From contig JAJCXN010000044.1 of the NCBI GenBank assembly GCA_029263415.1, positions 186,001 through 250,000 on the forward strand: DNA of 64,000 bases, written 5' to 3'. This DNA comes from Acidobacteriota bacterium. GTDB taxonomy: Bacteria; Acidobacteriota; Thermoanaerobaculia; Multivoradales; Multivoraceae. The position numbers were made by a program, and so were the translations under genes. This document shows positions 54,635 through 62,557 of the stretch, piece by piece. The notes below the pieces were generated by a model. It searched no databases. It saw only the letters and a program-made list of their open reading frames with translations, and was not told the DNA's origin. Numbering within the stretch: position 1 is the stretch's first letter; the number at the start of each line of letters is the position of its first letter.

Positions 54635-55054
54635 TCAAACATCGGGTTCCTGCTCGTCGAGGAGATCGAGGATCGGACACTCGGTTCGAGGATCCGTGAT
54701 TTCACAGAGGTCGTGAAGCTCTGTTAGAGCTCGACTCATTTGCTGAAGAGCGCGTGTGCGGCGCTCGATGTTCTCGAGCTTGTTGGCGATCTGTTCACGG
54801 ACCTCGCCGCACAATGCCGCTGATCCCGTCCGCAAGGCAAGAAGTTCTCCGATCTCTTGCAGCGAGAAACCGAGGTTCTTAGCACGACGGATGAACTTCA
54901 AACGGCGAACGGTCTCCTGCGGGTAGTCCCGATAGCCTGACGAAGGTCTGCGTGGAGGATCCGCGATCAAGCCACGCCGCTCGTAGAAACGGATGGTCTC
55001 AACACCAACACCCGCCTCGCTGGCCAACTGTCCTATTGTCAGGCTCTGCGACAT
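54635..55054 (-). CDS. merR: MerR mercury-responsive regulator
   Basis: A 139-residue MerR-family regulator. The N-terminal winged helix has LTIGQLASEAGVGVETIRFY followed by ERRGLI, typical of MerR. Three cysteines fall at residues 82, 117 and 126, which are exactly the Hg(II)-binding positions of Tn501 MerR; the dimerisation helix lies between. This is strong evidence for mercury sensing rather than copper or zinc. The promoter in front has a mer-type operator (55061-55092), and its -10 element ends only 6 bases before the ATG, so the mRNA is probably leaderless. It is divergent in position from, but also seems to control, the operon beginning at 57234. Confidence 0.93.
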   Translation of the reverse strand: MSQSLTIGQLASEAGVGVETIRFYERRGLIADPPRRPSSGYRDYPQETVRRLKFIRRAKNLGFSLQEIGELLALRTGSAALCGEVREQIANKLENIERRTRALQQMSRALTELHDLCEITDPRTECPILDLLDEQEPDV

Positions 55055-55060
55055 AGGAGC

Positions 55061-55092
55061 ACTCTAAACCCTGTACCACCGTACGGAGTCAA
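55061..55092 (-). promoter_or_regulatory. mer-type operator/promoter of merR
   Basis: On the minus strand: -35 TTGACT (55092-55087), then CC GTAC GGTG GTAC, and a -10-like TAGAGT (55066-55061) after a long spacer of 19-20 bp. The GTAC-N4-GTAC dyad and long spacer are hallmarks of mercury MerR promoters, and the first part (TTGACTCCGTAC) equals that at 57102. Confidence 0.85.
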
Positions 55093-55169: not shown

Positions 55170-56021
55170 CTAGTCTTGGTTCGCGGGACTCTCTGGATTC
55201 AAGAACTCGGCAAGCTCCTTGTGACCCTCATGTGCCGCCCAACCCGCAGGAGTGCGCCGGATCGTGAGATCCTCGCTAGCGGGATCCGCGCCCCGCTCCA
55301 GTAACAGCTCACACATGGCTTGGTGCCCGCGGATGGCAGCCCAGTGCAGGGCCGTACCCCTGAAGTGAAACCCAACTGGAAATGTCCCCACGTTGGCGCC
55401 CCTGTCGAGCAGGAACTCAGCCGCACCCGAGCAGCCGCTCATCGCAGCATAGGCCAAGGCGTTGTCGACGATCTGCTGATCGCCTTGCTGACATCGATCA
55501 TCTTCGAGCACTCCGAACGGGGAGTTGATGCCGCCAGCGCCTGCACGAAGAGACCCTGTCTCATCGAAGAAGCTGAGCATCTCGTCGACGCGCCCCAAAC
55601 CCGCAGCTGCTCGGAGACTAGGAATCGCTGCGCCCCGACCGAGCAGTAGCTCCGCGATGTCGTTGGACCCCCAGTACAAGGATTCTTCCAGCGGTGTCCA
55701 GCCGCCAAGGACGGCCGGGTCTCCGTCGATGGCAGCGCCCTCGGCCATAAGAATCTGCGCGACGACAAGGTTCCCCACGCTCGCTGTGGCAACTAGGGGC
55801 TCATTGACCGGTGAGCCTCGCTCTAGAAGCGCAACCGCCATCCGTGTCTGGACCTCTGAGGAATGACGCAATCCGTCGAGTGCAAGACACTGCATCAAGG
55901 TCGGGTGGCCGCATGATGACCGAGCTGCGGCCAACTGCGGCGCGAGCCTCAGTGCGGCCTCCAGCAACCCTGGACTGCCCTTGCGAATTGCCAGAGCAGC
56001 AGGAAGAAACTTCAAGTCCAT
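55170..56021 (-). CDS. Ankyrin-repeat protein
   Basis: A 283-residue protein made of about eight ankyrin-like repeats (clear units include GWTPLEESLYWGSNDIAELL and GTALHWAAIRGHQAMCELLL). No signal peptide or membrane helix, so it should be cytoplasmic and mediate protein contacts. It is just downstream of the metallopeptidase-like gene (9 bp), suggesting co-transcription, and upstream of merR with a gap of 115 bp. No direct link to metal resistance is evident. Confidence 0.8.
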   Translation of the reverse strand: MDLKFLPAALAIRKGSPGLLEAALRLAPQLAAARSSCGHPTLMQCLALDGLRHSSEVQTRMAVALLERGSPVNEPLVATASVGNLVVAQILMAEGAAIDGDPAVLGGWTPLEESLYWGSNDIAELLLGRGAAIPSLRAAAGLGRVDEMLSFFDETGSLRAGAGGINSPFGVLEDDRCQQGDQQIVDNALAYAAMSGCSGAAEFLLDRGANVGTFPVGFHFRGTALHWAAIRGHQAMCELLLERGADPASEDLTIRRTPAGWAAHEGHKELAEFLNPESPANQD

Positions 56022-56843: not shown

Positions 56844-57233
56844 TCCGTCTCCTCCCCAATCGTACTCGACGGTAACACCGCGGGCGAGTGCCGCAAGGGT
56901 CACCGCACTTCGGGAGATCTATCAACCTAAGAACGCATGCCTGCCCCCCCAAGAAGTCGATGTCGGCGTGGCCTGACACGGTCGAGCAGCGATGCGAAGA
57001 ACTGCTGCGACCTTGGAGCGCAAGAAGCTCCCCACGAGTGTCTTGTGGGTACTCGGACTGTCAATCACGGCGTCCAGCGGGTCGCGGAGCACAACCGTTC
57101 CTTGACTCCGTACCATGGTACGAGGTTTACGATGGGCCCATGGCATGTCTAACCACTTCGTCTCACCGCGTAACCACCAGCAACGGCCGAACCTCGCCGT
57201 GGGCTCTGGGGTCTGGCCTGCGAAAGGCATCGG
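56844..57233. other. Divergent intergenic region holding the mer operator
   Basis: About 390 bp between the metallopeptidase-like gene (minus) and the CopZ-like gene (plus). The mer-type operator/promoter at 57102-57133 lies here. Very short frames downstream of it (about 57141-57241) lack ribosome-binding sites and are not called. Confidence 0.6.
57102..57133 (+). promoter_or_regulatory. mer-type operator/promoter of the copZ-like / merT-like / selenoprotein operon
   Basis: -35 TTGACT at 57102-57107, then a perfect 14-bp palindrome CGTACCATGGTACG (57109-57122) containing GTAC-N4-GTAC, then a -10-like TTACGA or TACGAT after a 19-20-bp spacer. This is the layout of Tn501-type mer promoters and closely matches the one in front of merR, so the merR product should control this operon. 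Confidence 0.88.
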
Positions 57234-57692
57234 ATGAGTGACGACTGCTGCGACGTCCCAGCGACCAACGGCACTGGATGTTGCCCTGTATCCGGAACAG
57301 CCGGCCAGTCAGTGAAGTGGACCACCGTGTCAGCAATGACTTCGGGGCCAGTGCCGCCGCGTCAAGACTTGGCGCTTTGCTGCGATGCCGAGTGCGAAGT
57401 CGTTTACTTCGGCGAACACGGACTCACGCTTCGAACGAATGAGGTCCGTGTGGTTCCTGGCTTCAAACTCGGAGCCGAAGACCTGGTCTGTTACTGCTTT
57501 CTGCACTCTCGAGAGGCCATCACCACGGAAGCAGAGATCCTCGGAGAGAGCCCGACGCTCGAATCCATCCGAGCCAGTGTGAAGAAGAAGGAGTGCGCGT
57601 GCGAGGTTCGCAATCCGGCCGGCAAGTGCTGCCTCCGCGACGTTCTACGAGTCGTCGACGCCGCAATCTCAAAAGAGGGAGTCACCGAATGA
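57234..57692 (+). CDS. CopZ-like iron-sulfur / zinc metallochaperone domain protein
   Basis: A 152-residue cysteine-rich protein without signal peptide. Cysteine clusters: CC at residues 5-6 and 16-17, CC and C in LALCCDAECEVVYF, CxC in LVCYCFLHSREAI, CAC in KKECACEV and CC in GKCCLRDV. This fits the N-terminal domain of Archaeoglobus-type CopZ, which holds a zinc and a [2Fe-2S] cluster (BFD-like); the usual C-terminal HMA domain is absent. Proteins of this family are often found with mercury or copper genes. It is the first gene after the mer operator and overlaps the next small gene by 4 bp. A role in handling or reducing the incoming metal is inferred. Confidence 0.8.
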   Translation: MSDDCCDVPATNGTGCCPVSGTAGQSVKWTTVSAMTSGPVPPRQDLALCCDAECEVVYFGEHGLTLRTNEVRVVPGFKLGAEDLVCYCFLHSREAITTEAEILGESPTLESIRASVKKKECACEVRNPAGKCCLRDVLRVVDAAISKEGVTE

Positions 57693-57790
57693 AACCGCTT
57701 TCCCTAGTTTGCAGGTGCACCTGTGGTTTCGGCTGTCTGGTTGGCTCTGTGATCTTCGCCGTCACCCTCTTCCAGCGGTTGAGCCTGTGA
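57689..57790 (+). CDS. 33-residue cysteine-rich single-span membrane peptide
   Basis: A very short gene, too small for standard callers. Its ATG lies inside the stop of the CopZ-like gene (ATGA) and its stop overlaps the GTG start of the MerT-like gene (GTGA), so it is the middle link in a chain of coupled genes. The peptide has four cysteines close together (CRCTCGFGC, residues 8-16) followed by a hydrophobic helix (LVGSVIFAVTLF). It could bind Hg(II) at the membrane and pass it between transporter and chaperone. I know no named family. That it is translated is inferred from the perfect overlaps. Confidence 0.65.
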   Translation: MKPLSLVCRCTCGFGCLVGSVIFAVTLFQRLSL

Positions 57791-58158
57791 CCACCAAACA
57801 CAACGTCGGCGCGTGGAGCGCGGCCACTACAGGAGCGGGAGCCGCGGTACTCGCCACCGCCGCCACAGCTTGCTGCGTACCCATCCTCGCACCCCTTTTG
57901 GTGAGCGTACTCGGAGTGTCAGGAGCGATCTGGGCGGCAAATCTAGAGCCTTACAGCCTTCTCATCCTGCTCGCATCAGCCCTTGTCCTAGCCTACGGTT
58001 TCTGGGCCGTATACCGGGTGAGGCCGGTTGCTGAGGGTGAGCTGTGCCCGACGAAGCGCCCATTGCCCATACGAACGATCCTTTTGTTCTCGGCTCTATT
58101 GTGGAGCGTCGCCCTGGTGGTGAATGTCCTCCGTCTCTTGAATGTGCAATTCAGATAG
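57787..58158 (+). CDS. merT: MerT-like mercuric ion transporter
   Basis: A 123-residue membrane protein with three helices. The first helix contains the adjacent Cys pair (Cys29-Cys30 in ATAATACCVPILAP), the Hg(II)-binding site of MerT; a single Cys87 lies in the loop after helix 2, where MerT usually has two. The start is GTG at 57787, overlapping the stop of the small upstream gene; longer frames to 57709 run through that gene in another frame. No MerP is present; the small Cys-rich peptide or the selenoprotein may fill that place. It should move mercuric ions to the cytoplasm. The symbol reflects similarity. Confidence 0.82.
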   Translation: MTTKHNVGAWSAATTGAGAAVLATAATACCVPILAPLLVSVLGVSGAIWAANLEPYSLLILLASALVLAYGFWAVYRVRPVAEGELCPTKRPLPIRTILLFSALLWSVALVVNVLRLLNVQFR

Positions 58159-58177: not shown

Positions 58178-58756
58178 ATGAATCCCAACAGAACTCTCAA
58201 GGGCAAGAAGCGCTTACTCGCCGCAGGAGTGATCGCCTGCGCTTCTCTGGCAATGGCCCAGGCTGGAGCAAAACATGACGGGGTGATCAGTCAAGACTTC
58301 GAGCCATTCCGTTCGGCCTTCAACGCGGCCTCGGGTAACGTGCGCGCGGTGCTCTTGGTGGGCCCCACGTGAGGGGTTTGTCTTCGGGGGGTCTCCGAAG
58401 TCGACAAAGCATTCAAAGAAGCCGGCATTTCAAATCTGACCGTGCTGGTGATCAACTCCGATCAGCTCGGAGCAAAAGAGAAGCACGTTGCGAACGCCTC
58501 GAAGCTGATGAGCGGTGACAACGTCCACCACTACTGGGACGGCGAAAAGCACGTCGGGAAAGCGATCCAACCTATGATCGAAGGCCTGAGCCAACCGGCC
58601 TGGGACTTCTGGATGCTCTATGAGCCCGGTCGAACCTGGGGGGAGGCCGCCCCAGAACCGGATTGGTGGGAGCACCAACTCGGGGGCCTCCCTCAGAACA
58701 GGAAGCTAGACGCAGTACGCTTCGCTGAGAAAGCTAAGAAGCTCGCCAGACAGTAG
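58178..58756 (+). CDS. Exported thioredoxin-like selenoprotein (UxxC), UGA read as selenocysteine
   Basis: The frame from ATG 58178 (GAAGGA upstream) to TAG 58756 is 192 codons with one internal TGA at codon 65. Residues 1-33 form a signal peptide. The TGA lies exactly at the first Cys position of a thioredoxin-type active site: VLLVGPT-U-GVCLRGVSEV, giving UxxC (U65, C68). Sequence after it continues in the same frame without damage (VHHYWDGEKHVGKAI, WDFWMLYEPGRTW), matching a family of thioredoxin-like proteins with the HYWD motif. A SECIS-like hairpin follows immediately (58382-58400). It is 19 bp after merT in the mer-controlled operon. A periplasmic role in reducing or carrying mercury is inferred; known selenocysteine-assisted organometal systems use a comparable thioredoxin-like (seleno)protein. 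Confidence 0.88.
58370..58372 (+). other. In-frame UGA codon, predicted selenocysteine (residue 65)
   Basis: TGA sits in place of the first Cys codon of a CxxC-type motif, with intact coding sequence on both sides and a hairpin downstream at the distance used by bacterial SECIS elements. Confidence 0.85.
58382..58400 (+). promoter_or_regulatory. Predicted bacterial SECIS hairpin
   Basis: A perfect 6-bp stem CTTCGG / CCGAAG closes a 7-base loop GGGGTCT; outer bases can add a few more pairs (G80-C102 and neighbours). The loop contains GGTCT, the same core as the apical loop of the E. coli fdhF SECIS, and begins 15 bases after the UGA, within the usual range. It lies inside the coding region, as bacterial SECIS elements do. 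Confidence 0.8.
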
Positions 58757-58767
58757 AGCATGGCGCG

Positions 58768-58798
58768 CACACCAGCCGGACCTTGCCGGACTGGTGTG
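58768..58798 (+). terminator. Strong hairpin after the selenoprotein gene
   Basis: Inverted repeat CACACCAG ... CTGGTGTG (8 bp) with an inner CCGG/CCGG pairing and a one-base bulge, starting 12 bp after the stop. There is no T-run after it, so it may be a weak or factor-dependent terminator, or an mRNA-stabilising structure. Confidence 0.5.
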
Positions 58799-59032
58799 GC
58801 GGATCGTTGACAACGAGCCTCGGCTCTAAGAGTCGCTCAAAGCTCGGGCGCCAGTTTCCATACTCGCTGGCCTCACTCAAACGAAGACGACGGATCGGAA
58901 TCCAGTGGTGCCGAGGTTTCGTACCTTGATCAAACGGCGCGCAACTGCGTGAGCGAACAGGCGCTGCCACCCGAAACATGGCACTATTGTCCTGCGAGCG
59001 CAGTCCGTCACAGGCAACCTCGCCCAACCGCA

Positions 59033-59458
59033 ATGTACAAAAAGAACTCCATCGCCACCCTAGCCGCACTGGCTATGGCTCTGTTCGCACCCCTCTGGTG
59101 CGATTGTGCAGAGGCAAGCGTGGATCAGTCGGCAAGTGCCCAGGTGATGCCTGACGCCGACCTCGCTCGGCCAGGCAAAGAACACTGTGCGGAGACGGAC
59201 TCAGAGGGTCCAGCGGAGCTGCCTGACAAGGATCAATGCTGCGACTCAGCAGCAGCGACCTGCCCCACCCTTGAGCGCGCAGACGCTCAAGAGCCTGCTC
59301 CAGAAGCAACGGAGTGGCCTTCAGCACGTCTTGCTGCGCTGATCCCAAGCGCCGAGGAAGGGGGCTTGGCACCGCCAAGAGCCTCTATGCCACCACGGTG
59401 GGAGCCTCAGCTCTCTCTCCCGCCGCTCTTCACACTTCATGGCGCCTTTCTAATCTAA
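59033..59458 (+). CDS. CopL-like cysteine-rich exported metal-binding protein
   Basis: A 141-residue protein with a signal peptide (IATLAALAMALFAPLWC). Cysteines cluster in the mature part (WCDCAEAS, EHCAETD, DQCCDSAAATCPT), then a Pro-rich tail ends with PPLFTLHGAFLI, the typical closing pattern of small CopL/DUF2946-like proteins that precede metal efflux operons. The ATG at 59033 gives a proper signal peptide; a longer frame from 58949 does not. It lies 70 bp upstream of the cusC-like gene. It may bind copper or mercury in the periplasm; exact metal unknown. Confidence 0.7.
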   Translation: MYKKNSIATLAALAMALFAPLWCDCAEASVDQSASAQVMPDADLARPGKEHCAETDSEGPAELPDKDQCCDSAAATCPTLERADAQEPAPEATEWPSARLAALIPSAEEGGLAPPRASMPPRWEPQLSLPPLFTLHGAFLI

Positions 59459-59528
59459 TTCTCCTTTCGGCTGAGTGCGTGCTGCGTCCCCCGACGCGCA
59501 CAACACCCTTAAACCGGAAGGACGAATC

Positions 59529-60947
59529 ATGGATTTCAGAAAGAAGACGACCTGGCTGGTCCTAGCCCAGGGACTAGCGCTCTGCACTGTTGTGCAGGCA
59601 CGACAGGACAGCACGCGGACTGCTTCGGAGGAGACCGAGACCTCGGCACCTCCGGTTGCAGATCGAACACGTGCTGGTGCCAGTCGCTCCGCCTCGCAGC
59701 TCACCGTTGAGTCGACAGGCATTGGGCAGCCTAGATCGCTGTTCGATGAGGTGCTCGAGCGCAACCCAGAGATCGCAAGAGCCCTGTACCTAGCAGCAGC
59801 GGCTGAGGCACTTGCTCCACAGCTGCGAGCCCTGCCAGACCCAACCGCGGCACTCTCGCTGTTTGTGTTGCCACCAGAAACACGCTCTGGGCCGCAACAG
59901 TTCAGTGTCTCCGTTCAGCAGAAGCTGCCCTGGTTCGGGAAGCTCTCACTCAAGGAGAAGGCGGCCACCTACGCAGCAGCTGCTGCTGCTGCTCGCGTTG
60001 AAACAATGCGCCTCGACATGTTGGCGGAGGCTCGCCGTGCTGTTTCAGAGCTGGCCTTCCTAGACGCTAGAGAATCGATCCTCCTCGAGGAGCGGGACGC
60101 TCTGGTCCGCTACGAACGAGCGGCGCAAGCGCGCTACGCCTCTGGCTCTGGACTGCAGCAAGAAATCGTGCGCATCCAGGCGCAGATCACCAGAACTGAT
60201 ACCCGCCTCCTGGGGATTTCTGAACGACGCTGGACGCTCCGTTCGGCACTGAACGCTTTGCGGGATCGACCGGCCGACCACCCTCTCGAAAGCTCCTCAC
60301 TGCCAGAGGCTCACGAGCCAACGTTTGATCTCGCAGCACTCAGGAGCCACGCGCGTTCGCGCCGCCCAGAGATCAATGAAGCGAACGCGGAGATCGCGGC
60401 AGGGCAGGCCCTGGTAGCGCTGGCACAAAAGGGCTACCGACCCGACGTCGCCTTGGGGCTCTCCTACACCGCCGTTGGCCGGCGCGATGATGCTCCAGGA
60501 CTCCTGATACCGCCACCCGACAACGGCGACGACATCCTGGCTCTGAGCGCTTCGCTCAACCTTCCAGTCCGCAAACGCAAACTCGCTGCGGGTGTCGAAC
60601 AAGCACAGGCCCTTCGCAGGGCGGCCGAAGAGAAGAAGCGACAAACCCTCGCCCAAATCGAGGGCTCCATCGGTGATCTTGTCTCCCGTATGCCGCTGCT
60701 CTACCAACACCTTCAACTCCTTGAGAACGTTCTGCTCAAGCAGGCGCGAGAAGCCCTCCGCTCAGCAGAAACGGCGTACGCCACCGGCAAGCTCAACGCC
60801 GTTGACCTCCTGGACTCAGAGATTGTGATGTTCGAGGTCCAAGTGGCAGCTGAACGAACCAGAACCGACCTGGCCGTGGCCTGGATCCAACTCGAACGCA
60901 CGATCGCAGGACCCGCAATGCAGTCAACCGAGAGTCTCAGCCCATGA
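59529..60947 (+). CDS. cusC: Outer-membrane efflux channel of a Cus-type RND pump (TolC family)
   Basis: A 472-residue TolC-family protein. It has a signal peptide (LVLAQGLALCTVVQA), then two copies of the long helical OEP domain (QKLPWFGKLSLKEKAATYAA in the first; ASLNLPVRKRKLAAGVEQAQ in the second), typical of CusC/CzcC. GGAAGGA precedes the ATG at 59529. It overlaps the adaptor gene by 4 bp (ATGA). It would form the exit duct for the CusB/CusA-like pump that follows. The run of GCA/GCT codons near 59976 is a plain Ala stretch. Confidence 0.87.
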   Translation: MDFRKKTTWLVLAQGLALCTVVQARQDSTRTASEETETSAPPVADRTRAGASRSASQLTVESTGIGQPRSLFDEVLERNPEIARALYLAAAAEALAPQLRALPDPTAALSLFVLPPETRSGPQQFSVSVQQKLPWFGKLSLKEKAATYAAAAAAARVETMRLDMLAEARRAVSELAFLDARESILLEERDALVRYERAAQARYASGSGLQQEIVRIQAQITRTDTRLLGISERRWTLRSALNALRDRPADHPLESSSLPEAHEPTFDLAALRSHARSRRPEINEANAEIAAGQALVALAQKGYRPDVALGLSYTAVGRRDDAPGLLIPPPDNGDDILALSASLNLPVRKRKLAAGVEQAQALRRAAEEKKRQTLAQIEGSIGDLVSRMPLLYQHLQLLENVLLKQAREALRSAETAYATGKLNAVDLLDSEIVMFEVQVAAERTRTDLAVAWIQLERTIAGPAMQSTESLSP

Positions 60948-62557
60948 CCAAAACAACCCTCTTTCGAGCTGCCCTCCTAGCGGTTGCAGTCCTCCTCGGC
61001 GTAGTTCTCGCACAACTTCTGCCAACAAACCTCTTGGGCCTTCGAGGGCTACCCACTCCGCCCAGTGCCACCGAAGAAATGCACATCGACAGTGGTCTTT
61101 GGACCTGCGGAATGCATCCACACGTGCTTGAAGAAGAGCCCGGGCAGTGCCCCATTTGCGGAATGAACCTGGTCCCCATGAAAGGCACAGCAGACTTAGC
61201 GACAGTCGAAGGCAGCGCCGGTGAGAACCCAACCTGGGTCTGTCTGGACCATCCCAGCATCGTCGAGAGCGAGCCTGGCACCTGCCCGATCGACGGCACT
61301 CCGCTCATTCGAACGAACGCAGCAGAGCCGAGCGCAAACGCTACAGACGAAATCCTCTTCTACCGCAACCCGATGGACCCAACCATCACCTCTGCTGTCC
61401 CGGCCAAAGACAGCATGGGCATGGACTATGTGCCGGTGTACCAGAACCAAGCCGGCAACACCGGCGCCCTTGTCAGCATTGATCCAACAGTGGTCCAGAA
61501 CATGAACGTGCGGACCGAAACGGTACAGCGCCGGGACCTGAGCGACTCCATCCGGACCGTGGGATATCTCGAGTTCGACCAGCAGCGCATGGTGACGGTG
61601 GCCACCAAATACTCAGGCTGGGTCGAGAAGGTGTACGTCAACTATGTCGGCGAGACGGTCCGCCGGGGCCAGGCCCTGTTCGAGATCTACTCACCAGAGC
61701 TGGTCCAGACCCAACAAGAGCTGCTGTCCGCCCTCGACTTCGCCAAGGACATGGCTGATGCACCTGCCGACACCCGTCAGCGAACCCAGTCCCTGGTGGA
61801 ATCGGCTCGTCAACGTCTGGGCTACTGGGACATCTCTTCGGAACAGATCCGCCAGCTCGAGGCAACGGGAGAACTGTTCCGATCGCTCACAGTCTCTGCG
61901 CCTGCCGGTGGCGTGGTGATGAAGCGGATGGCAGGGCTTGAAGGGATGGCGGTGAAGCCTGGAATGGAACTGTTCCATCTGGCCGACTTGTCTAGCCTTT
62001 GGCTGTCCGTTGAGCTGTTCGAGAGCCAGGTAGCGACCGTCCGCCCCGGAACAAGAGCCGAGATTGCACTGTCGTACTTCCCTGGCGAAGCCTTCAGCGG
62101 CAGAGTTCGTTTTCTCGAACCAGAGGTGTCCGCGCAGACCCGCACTATTCGGGCGATGGTCGAGGTCCCGAACCCAGGTGGACGGCTACGCAAAGGCATG
62201 TACGCGACCGTGCGGCTGGAACCCGTCGCAGCTCGAAATGCCATCGCCGTGCCGGTGCAGGCGGTGTTGCGAACCGGCCAGCGGAACTTGGTGGTCTTAG
62301 CTCTCGGCGAGGGACGGTTCGTACCACAGGAGATCACTCTCGGCTTCGAGGCCGAGGGTTTCGTCGAGGTGCTCGATGGCCTCGAAGAAGGAAGCACTGT
62401 GGTGACCTCCGCTCAGTTCCTGCTCGACTCCGAGTCGCAGCTCCAAGAGGCCGTGCAGAAGGTGATCGATGGTCGAACCAAGGGTCAGCGGGACGACACG
62501 CCTGGCCTAGCAGAACCATCGACGTCTAGCTCAACCGATCACTCAGGTCACTCATAG
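60944..62557 (+). CDS. cusB: Cus-type RND periplasmic adaptor with three heavy-metal-binding domains
   Basis: A 537-residue membrane-fusion protein. After an N-terminal helix there are three heavy-metal-binding (HMBD/YHS-like) modules: the first is complete with CGMHPHV and CPICGMNLVP, the second reads CLDHPSI ... CPIDGTPL, and the third, FYRNPMDP ... DSMGMDYVPVY, lacks cysteines but keeps Met residues. The barrel, lipoyl and hairpin parts follow (TVGYLEFDQQRMVTVATKYS; GMYATVRLEP). The C-terminus is Ser/His-rich (STDHSGHS) and may bind metal. Three HMBDs is more than usual. It is coupled to cusC by a 4-bp overlap and precedes cusA by 11 bp. Confidence 0.88.
   Translation: MTKTTLFRAALLAVAVLLGVVLAQLLPTNLLGLRGLPTPPSATEEMHIDSGLWTCGMHPHVLEEEPGQCPICGMNLVPMKGTADLATVEGSAGENPTWVCLDHPSIVESEPGTCPIDGTPLIRTNAAEPSANATDEILFYRNPMDPTITSAVPAKDSMGMDYVPVYQNQAGNTGALVSIDPTVVQNMNVRTETVQRRDLSDSIRTVGYLEFDQQRMVTVATKYSGWVEKVYVNYVGETVRRGQALFEIYSPELVQTQQELLSALDFAKDMADAPADTRQRTQSLVESARQRLGYWDISSEQIRQLEATGELFRSLTVSAPAGGVVMKRMAGLEGMAVKPGMELFHLADLSSLWLSVELFESQVATVRPGTRAEIALSYFPGEAFSGRVRFLEPEVSAQTRTIRAMVEVPNPGGRLRKGMYATVRLEPVAARNAIAVPVQAVLRTGQRNLVVLALGEGRFVPQEITLGFEAEGFVEVLDGLEEGSTVVTSAQFLLDSESQLQEAVQKVIDGRTKGQRDDTPGLAEPSTSSSTDHSGHS

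Follow-up and report, generated by a model that had tools for sequence, protein, structure and literature searches.

We identified an unannotated selenoprotein gene of the thioredoxin fold (positions 58178-58756, forward strand) as the last gene of a mer-type operon in an Acidobacteriota bacterium, within a contiguous stretch of 64,000 nucleotides (hereafter the window). Its UGA codon, its SECIS element, the Sec pathway of its genome, and the mercury-type operators of its operon can be read directly, and relatives elsewhere in the phylum are linked to, and in some cases fused with, mer components. We think it fairly likely that the product is a periplasmic selenothioredoxin that captures Hg(II) and feeds MerT, and that it is made when MerR senses Hg(II). 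The family is missed by standard annotation because a stop codon splits the frame, and it has no Pfam or NCBIfam match over cut-off.

A Single In-Frame UGA Very Probably Encodes Selenocysteine

The frame at 58178-58756 runs from an ATG to a TAG (58754-58756), is open throughout save for one TGA (58370-58372), and encodes 192 residues. The TGA opens a U-G-V-C motif (U65 and C68, in the context VLLVGPT-U-GVC-LRGVSE). Under the standard code (table 11) the same stretch is read as two ORFs of 76 aa and 104 aa, and direct reading together with these ORFs bears out the initial annotation, which had proposed a single-TGA frame at U-G-V-C that standard callers would split in two. A random stop, a frameshift, and a reassigned code were dropped as explanations, given the lone TGA in the frame and the presence of the Sec pathway.

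Relatives were sampled in 396 Acidobacteriota genomes, among which 46 encode the family, with 51 matches in all. In-frame TGA is found in 40 of these matches (two of them twice), TAA or TAG in none, and 11 have no stop. Detailed reading of 35 loci shows TGA in the Sec column of 26, a Cys codon in that of 9, and nothing else, and the tree of relatives requires no fewer than six U/C exchanges. In 35/35 loci, then, the homologues alternate cleanly between U and C at a single column, as opposed to showing random stops and frameshifts. Past the TGA, the window gene differs from one close relative (L018) by 18, 14, and 39 substitutions at first, second, and third codon positions, respectively, mostly third.

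The source genome (6.9 Mb, 99% complete) encodes all four components of the Sec pathway that were sought, namely tRNA-Sec (selC, anticodon UCA), selA, selB, and selD, each over cut-off and with selB on the window's own contig. Across the Acidobacteriota sample, selB (E ≤ 1e-60) is present in 44/46 family-bearing genomes vs. 212/350 others (P = 3e-7, Fisher's exact test), and the one near-complete family-bearing genome that lacks selB (G340) carries the Cys form. The selD of the source genome (C23:163515-164576; loci L013 and L014) lies inside an open frame of 833 aa, far longer than SelD alone, which is possibly an oxidoreductase-SelD fusion.

The sequence past the UGA has the layout TGA-GGGGTTTGT-CTTCGGGG-GGT-CTCCGAAG, in which the upper stem-loop of a bacterial SECIS (CTTCGGGG-GGT-CTCCGAAG; 58382-58400, forward strand) has 8 bp and a 3-nt loop and starts nine bases past the TGA. 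A hairpin just after the TGA had been claimed from a 6-bp pairing with the loop GGGGTCT; the hairpin is indeed there, and the 8-bp pairing describes it better. It fits the published bSECIS model, with an apical loop of 3–9 nt, a G in the first two positions, and a distance of 16–37 nt from the UGA (PMC13188914). Among 24 TGA sequences, the helix has standard pairs in 91% of cells and 17 double-changed cells vs. 2.4 in shuffles, with compensatory changes at five pairs, and the pairing signal is destroyed when the partner strand is slid by one base. For the 45-nt SECIS stretch the computed folding energy is −15.2 kcal/mol (z = −2.0); the real support for the element rests on covariation across relatives rather than on fold energy. 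We conclude that UGA 58370 is very probably selenocysteine, and short of mass spectrometry the selenoprotein status of 58178-58756 is close to certain.

A Thioredoxin-Fold Family in Acidobacteriota

The AlphaFold2 model of the window protein (pLDDT 87.6) has a thioredoxin fold, nearest to DsbF and ResA (VIA-align Z 12.9 and 12.4, respectively, at ~12% identity; best Foldseek E 2.5e-4). The thioredoxin-like domain has no Pfam or NCBIfam match over cut-off among the window protein and the members scanned, in a search that took in the NCBIfam selenoprotein models named in a 2026 review (PMC13188914). Below threshold, the window protein shows profile similarity to AhpC-TSA, Redoxin, and SelP_N; it has no match to the HMA domain (PF00403), and a PDB sequence search returned marginal matches only, mostly to disulfide isomerases and thioredoxins. 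An alignment of 34 members (A1) shows the following positions to be invariant or nearly so: F48-N49, R56, P63, U/C65, C68, W120, A141-W142-D143, Y148, W154, P159, and P161. The cis-proline position, as placed by alignment alone with a TlpA-like neighbor, has no proline and instead carries the almost invariant Ala-Trp-Asp. The N terminus, judged by eye, resembles a signal peptide, and the protein is probably exported to the periplasm.

Further relatives come from one genome of the same family as the source and from four acidobacterial MAGs in a separate collection. These four loci are the yield of a scan of all species, which detects close relatives only, and each bears the title Acidobacteria/Acidobacteriota or Thermoanaerobaculia. 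A tblastn search of plasmids with the window protein gave no match.

The Gene Closes an Operon Under a mer-Type Operator

The operon reads, in order, a mer operator/promoter, a CopZ-like gene, a 33-aa Cys-rich ORF, a MerT-like gene, and the selenoprotein gene, followed by a strong hairpin. The operator (TTGACTCCGTACCATGGTACG; 57102-57122, forward strand) has 0 mismatches to the pattern TTGACNNCGTACNNNNGTACG, and the same pattern stands in a plasmid mer operon and before the corresponding genes of two close relatives (L018 and L052). In the annotated plasmid operon (L097) the merT promoter reads TTGACTCCGTACATGAGTACGG, to which the window operator is identical at all specified bases. A second mer operator, with 1 mismatch, precedes merR (55072-55092, reverse strand). 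Allowing up to 2 mismatches, the scan yielded three matches in the window vs. 0.05 expected, the third being the first palindrome read on its opposite strand. The mer-type promoter claimed from the letters is thus present, and with it a further site. Scanning the operon region for sigma-70 promoters gave none; MerR-type promoters have a long spacer, so such a miss is expected.

The CopZ-like metallochaperone (57234-57692, forward strand; zf_CopZ and CopZ_Nterm_CC) matches PF18423 over cut-off (37.3 bits) and NF047645 at 99.8 bits vs. a cut-off of 100. It is followed by the 33-aa ORF (57689-57790, forward strand), which overlaps both neighbors and has a similar counterpart in L052, none being seen in L018, and by the MerT-like inner-membrane transporter (57787-58158, forward strand). 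The ends of these three ORFs overlap (ATGA, GTGA), and their translation is therefore probably coupled. The transporter scores 28.9 bits against PF02411, below the cut-off of 32.9, and its CC pair aligns with that of the plasmid MerT. This alignment and the MerT linkage of relatives support the MerT-like partner that had been proposed, and the fusions described below extend the picture. The hairpin past the selenoprotein gene (58764-58802, forward strand; −28.4 kcal/mol, z = −3.07) is a possible operon end; it has no T-run and is therefore not listed as an intrinsic terminator. An Rfam search of the whole window returned nothing at gathering score.

The regulator gene merR (54635-55054, reverse strand) has TIGR02051 as its best MerR-type model (135.9 bits vs. 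a cut-off of 150.85). Aligned with the plasmid MerR, it keeps three cysteines, the first after a small gap, which we take to be the Hg-binding ligands. This merR is not adjacent to the operon: ~2.1 kb and two minus-strand genes separate them, which corrects the initial annotation. One gene in this interval (55170-56021, reverse strand) is ankyrin-repeat-like and has a 53% identical homolog near the L052 operon, and it may therefore be part of the neighborhood.

The statement that no merA lies nearby holds for the window and fails for the contig, which carries merA ~46 kb downstream, in a locus that has a separate merR and merT as well as operators. At this second mer locus, a 209-aa protein without a family match lies between merR and merA (L091:4530-5159). 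Directly downstream of the selenoprotein operon is a Cus-type efflux set (59475-62557). Cus/Czc-type outer-membrane and adaptor genes fall within 59034-62557, where a Cys-rich hypothetical protein (59034-59458) precedes them, and this region is probably a separate Cu/Ag efflux operon.

Linkage and Fusion to mer Components in Relatives

Proximity to mer genes recurs across the family. A search of 47 genomes gave 19 MerT matches, 10 of them ~2 kb or less from the family gene, and MerR-type regulators are found near it at 13/44 loci. The layout of merR, CopZ-like, MerT-like, and selenoprotein genes is kept in L018 and L052 and in part in L020 and L021, and a mer operator stands upstream in L018 and L052 and, in less exact form, in L079. 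On the family tree the mer label is clustered, requiring 5 changes vs. 11.9 in shuffles.

We also found fusions. In one genome (G109; L092:5610-6641) a Cys-form domain is fused to the C terminus of MerT; merR precedes this gene, and after it come a MerP-like gene and then a merA that scores over cut-off. Two further genes join an N-terminal MerP-type HMA domain, behind a signal-like leader, to the thioredoxin domain, one in Cys form (G065; L094:4326-5237, reverse strand) and one in Sec form (G232; L061:2018-2905, reverse strand). Sister operons encode additional unannotated selenoproteins of the HMA type. Those at L019:4269-4826 and L021:3885-4430 are HMA/MerP-type proteins with the motif GMTUPLU and a signal-like leader, located just upstream of the family gene in L019 and upstream of MerT in L021, and a neighboring HMA selenoprotein at L077:6131-6490 (reverse strand) carries GMTUGAC. 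For all three, NF041115 is the best or nearly the best match, below its cut-off. Given the membrane topology of MerT, the C-terminal MerT and MerP-type fusions, together with Sec in the place of metal-ligand cysteines, favor the capture of a soft metal on the outer side of the inner membrane. The proposed mercury regulation is thus supported by operators, MerR, and linkage, and the fusions in relatives extend it.

A distant, highly supported clade of 12 members (L031, L033, L034, L037, L038, L040-L045, and L049) has none of the mer neighbors that we looked for, and the basic activity of the family therefore need not be specific to mercury. Failure to find mer genes counts for little, because neighbors were called by BLAST plus a small set of profiles and because some of the contigs are short. 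Members of this clade have a Sec form, typically SPTUPxCLRxA, or Cys. In L073-L076, a PilM-like gene lies ~1 kb upstream.

A Probable Role in Periplasmic Mercury Capture

We propose that MerR, on sensing Hg(II), would switch on production of the selenoprotein, which would then be exported to the periplasm. There its selenolate/thiolate pair (U/C) would capture Hg(II) or organic mercury and deliver it to the paired cysteines of the neighboring MerT-like transporter, replacing or assisting MerP. The CopZ-like protein would be the cytosolic acceptor of the metal, whose reduction would fall to MerA from the locus 46 kb away. Specificity for mercury is suggested by the operator, MerR, and genomic linkage. 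We infer that mercury is the ligand, that the role is a relay rather than a redox one, and that transfer runs from selenoprotein to transporter. In favor of this reading we count the linkage and fusions to mer components, the MerP-type partners that carry Sec, and the lack of a proline at the cis position. Several observations count against capture: a UxxC thioredoxin fold would suit a reductase equally well, the MerT-like and MerR scores fall below curated cut-offs, and some members, those of the 12-member clade, have no mer neighbors. The Cus-type set directly downstream is a further one, and the true metal could therefore include Cu, Ag, or Au.

The chief rival to capture and delivery of Hg(II) is a dedicated reductase of mer thiols, that is, a Sec oxidoreductase that under mercury stress keeps the Cys pairs of MerT or MerP-type proteins reduced or strips mercury from periplasmic thiols. 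The closest folds are those of the ResA/DsbF thiol-disulfide oxidoreductases (Z 12–13), UxxC/CxxC is a redox motif, catalogued Sec proteins of thioredoxin fold are mostly thought to be redox enzymes (PMC13188914), and fusion to MerP or MerT would suit a dedicated reductase as well. This reading nevertheless seems rather unlikely to us in view of the cis-proline position, which has no proline, and of the sister operons, where Sec takes the place of HMA metal-ligand cysteines.

We consider it improbable that the protein is a general periplasmic selenoprotein of thiol or metal stress (copper, silver, gold, or peroxide) that stands in MerR-type operons by chance. The CopZ-like gene in the operon, the Cus-type genes beyond it, the clade without mer neighbors, and the weak AhpC/TSA and Redoxin similarity would all accord with such a role, but an operator equal to that of the plasmid at every specified base, a MerR with three Hg cysteines, and a recurrent association with MerT and MerP-type domains, through linkage as well as fusion, argue against it. 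Finally, a pseudogene, a sequencing error, or an ordinary stop between two short unrelated ORFs has nothing but the TGA itself in its favor and is refuted by the identical TGA column in 26 independent loci, with TGA the sole stop type and Cys elsewhere, and by SECIS covariation in a genome that has the Sec pathway.

Returning to mercury capture, ordinary mercury-resistance operons appear to have taken selenium into service. We see about an even chance that Acidobacteriota possess a selenium-based periplasmic half of the mer system in which a new thioredoxin-fold family binds Hg(II) through Sec or Cys and passes it to MerT, the MerP-type protein also carrying Sec in some operons.

Relation to Known Selenium and Mercury Systems

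Sec is already known in mer-type proteins (NF041115 and NF045683) and in the selenocysteine-assisted organometal (SAO) system. The SAO protein SaoT (NF040730) is, like the window protein, a thioredoxin-like UxxC selenoprotein with a link to mercury or organometals, and the initial annotation had regarded the operon as related to that system. We judged membership through NCBIfam models and gene neighbors, taking the description of SAO from a 2026 review (PMC13188914), and the results do not support it. The SaoT model matches neither the window protein (E ≤ 1) nor any of the 34 members (E ≤ 0.1), and no other SAO model matches. SAO has an ABC transporter, whereas the window family keeps company with the classical parts merR, MerT, MerP-type, and MerA; around the window gene stand MerT-like, CopZ-like, merR, and Cus-type genes, with no SAO ABC-transporter or SaoL gene among them. 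NF041115 (UxxU metal-binding) and NF045683 (MerT/CopZ-fusion-like selenoprotein) likewise place Sec in mercury-transport proteins, but these have HMA or MerT folds, whereas the window protein has a thioredoxin fold without HMA.

The periplasmic thioredoxins ResA, TlpA, and DsbF have the fold and the CxxC/UxxC position in common with the window protein. The family differs from them in its ~12% identity, the lack of a proline at the cis position, its own motifs (AWD and PxP...H), and the absence of a Pfam match over cut-off. The GOS Prx-like 2 and 3 and Redoxin-family UxxC selenoproteins (PMC2398784 and PMC13188914) are also distant Prx/Trx-like proteins with UxxC; we found no reported mer linkage for them, and they may be identical with part of the window family.

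The classical mer operon, as represented by the plasmid operon L097, shares with the window operon the operator, a MerR with three Hg cysteines, and the CC pair of the MerT-like transporter. The window operon differs in having neither MerP nor MerA and in placing a Sec thioredoxin in the position after merT. In the open-access literature searched, we did not find a Sec thioredoxin that serves a classical mer operon as its periplasmic component and has MerT and MerP-type fusions. The very high affinity of selenium for mercury is usually seen as a basis of toxicity; here Sec appears to be used for defense against mercury, and inside a classical MerR-controlled operon of a genome in which merA is present as well. 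This protein exists naturally with Cys and with Sec, on its own and joined to MerT or MerP-type domains, and these versions offer a direct route to asking what selenium contributes to metal capture.
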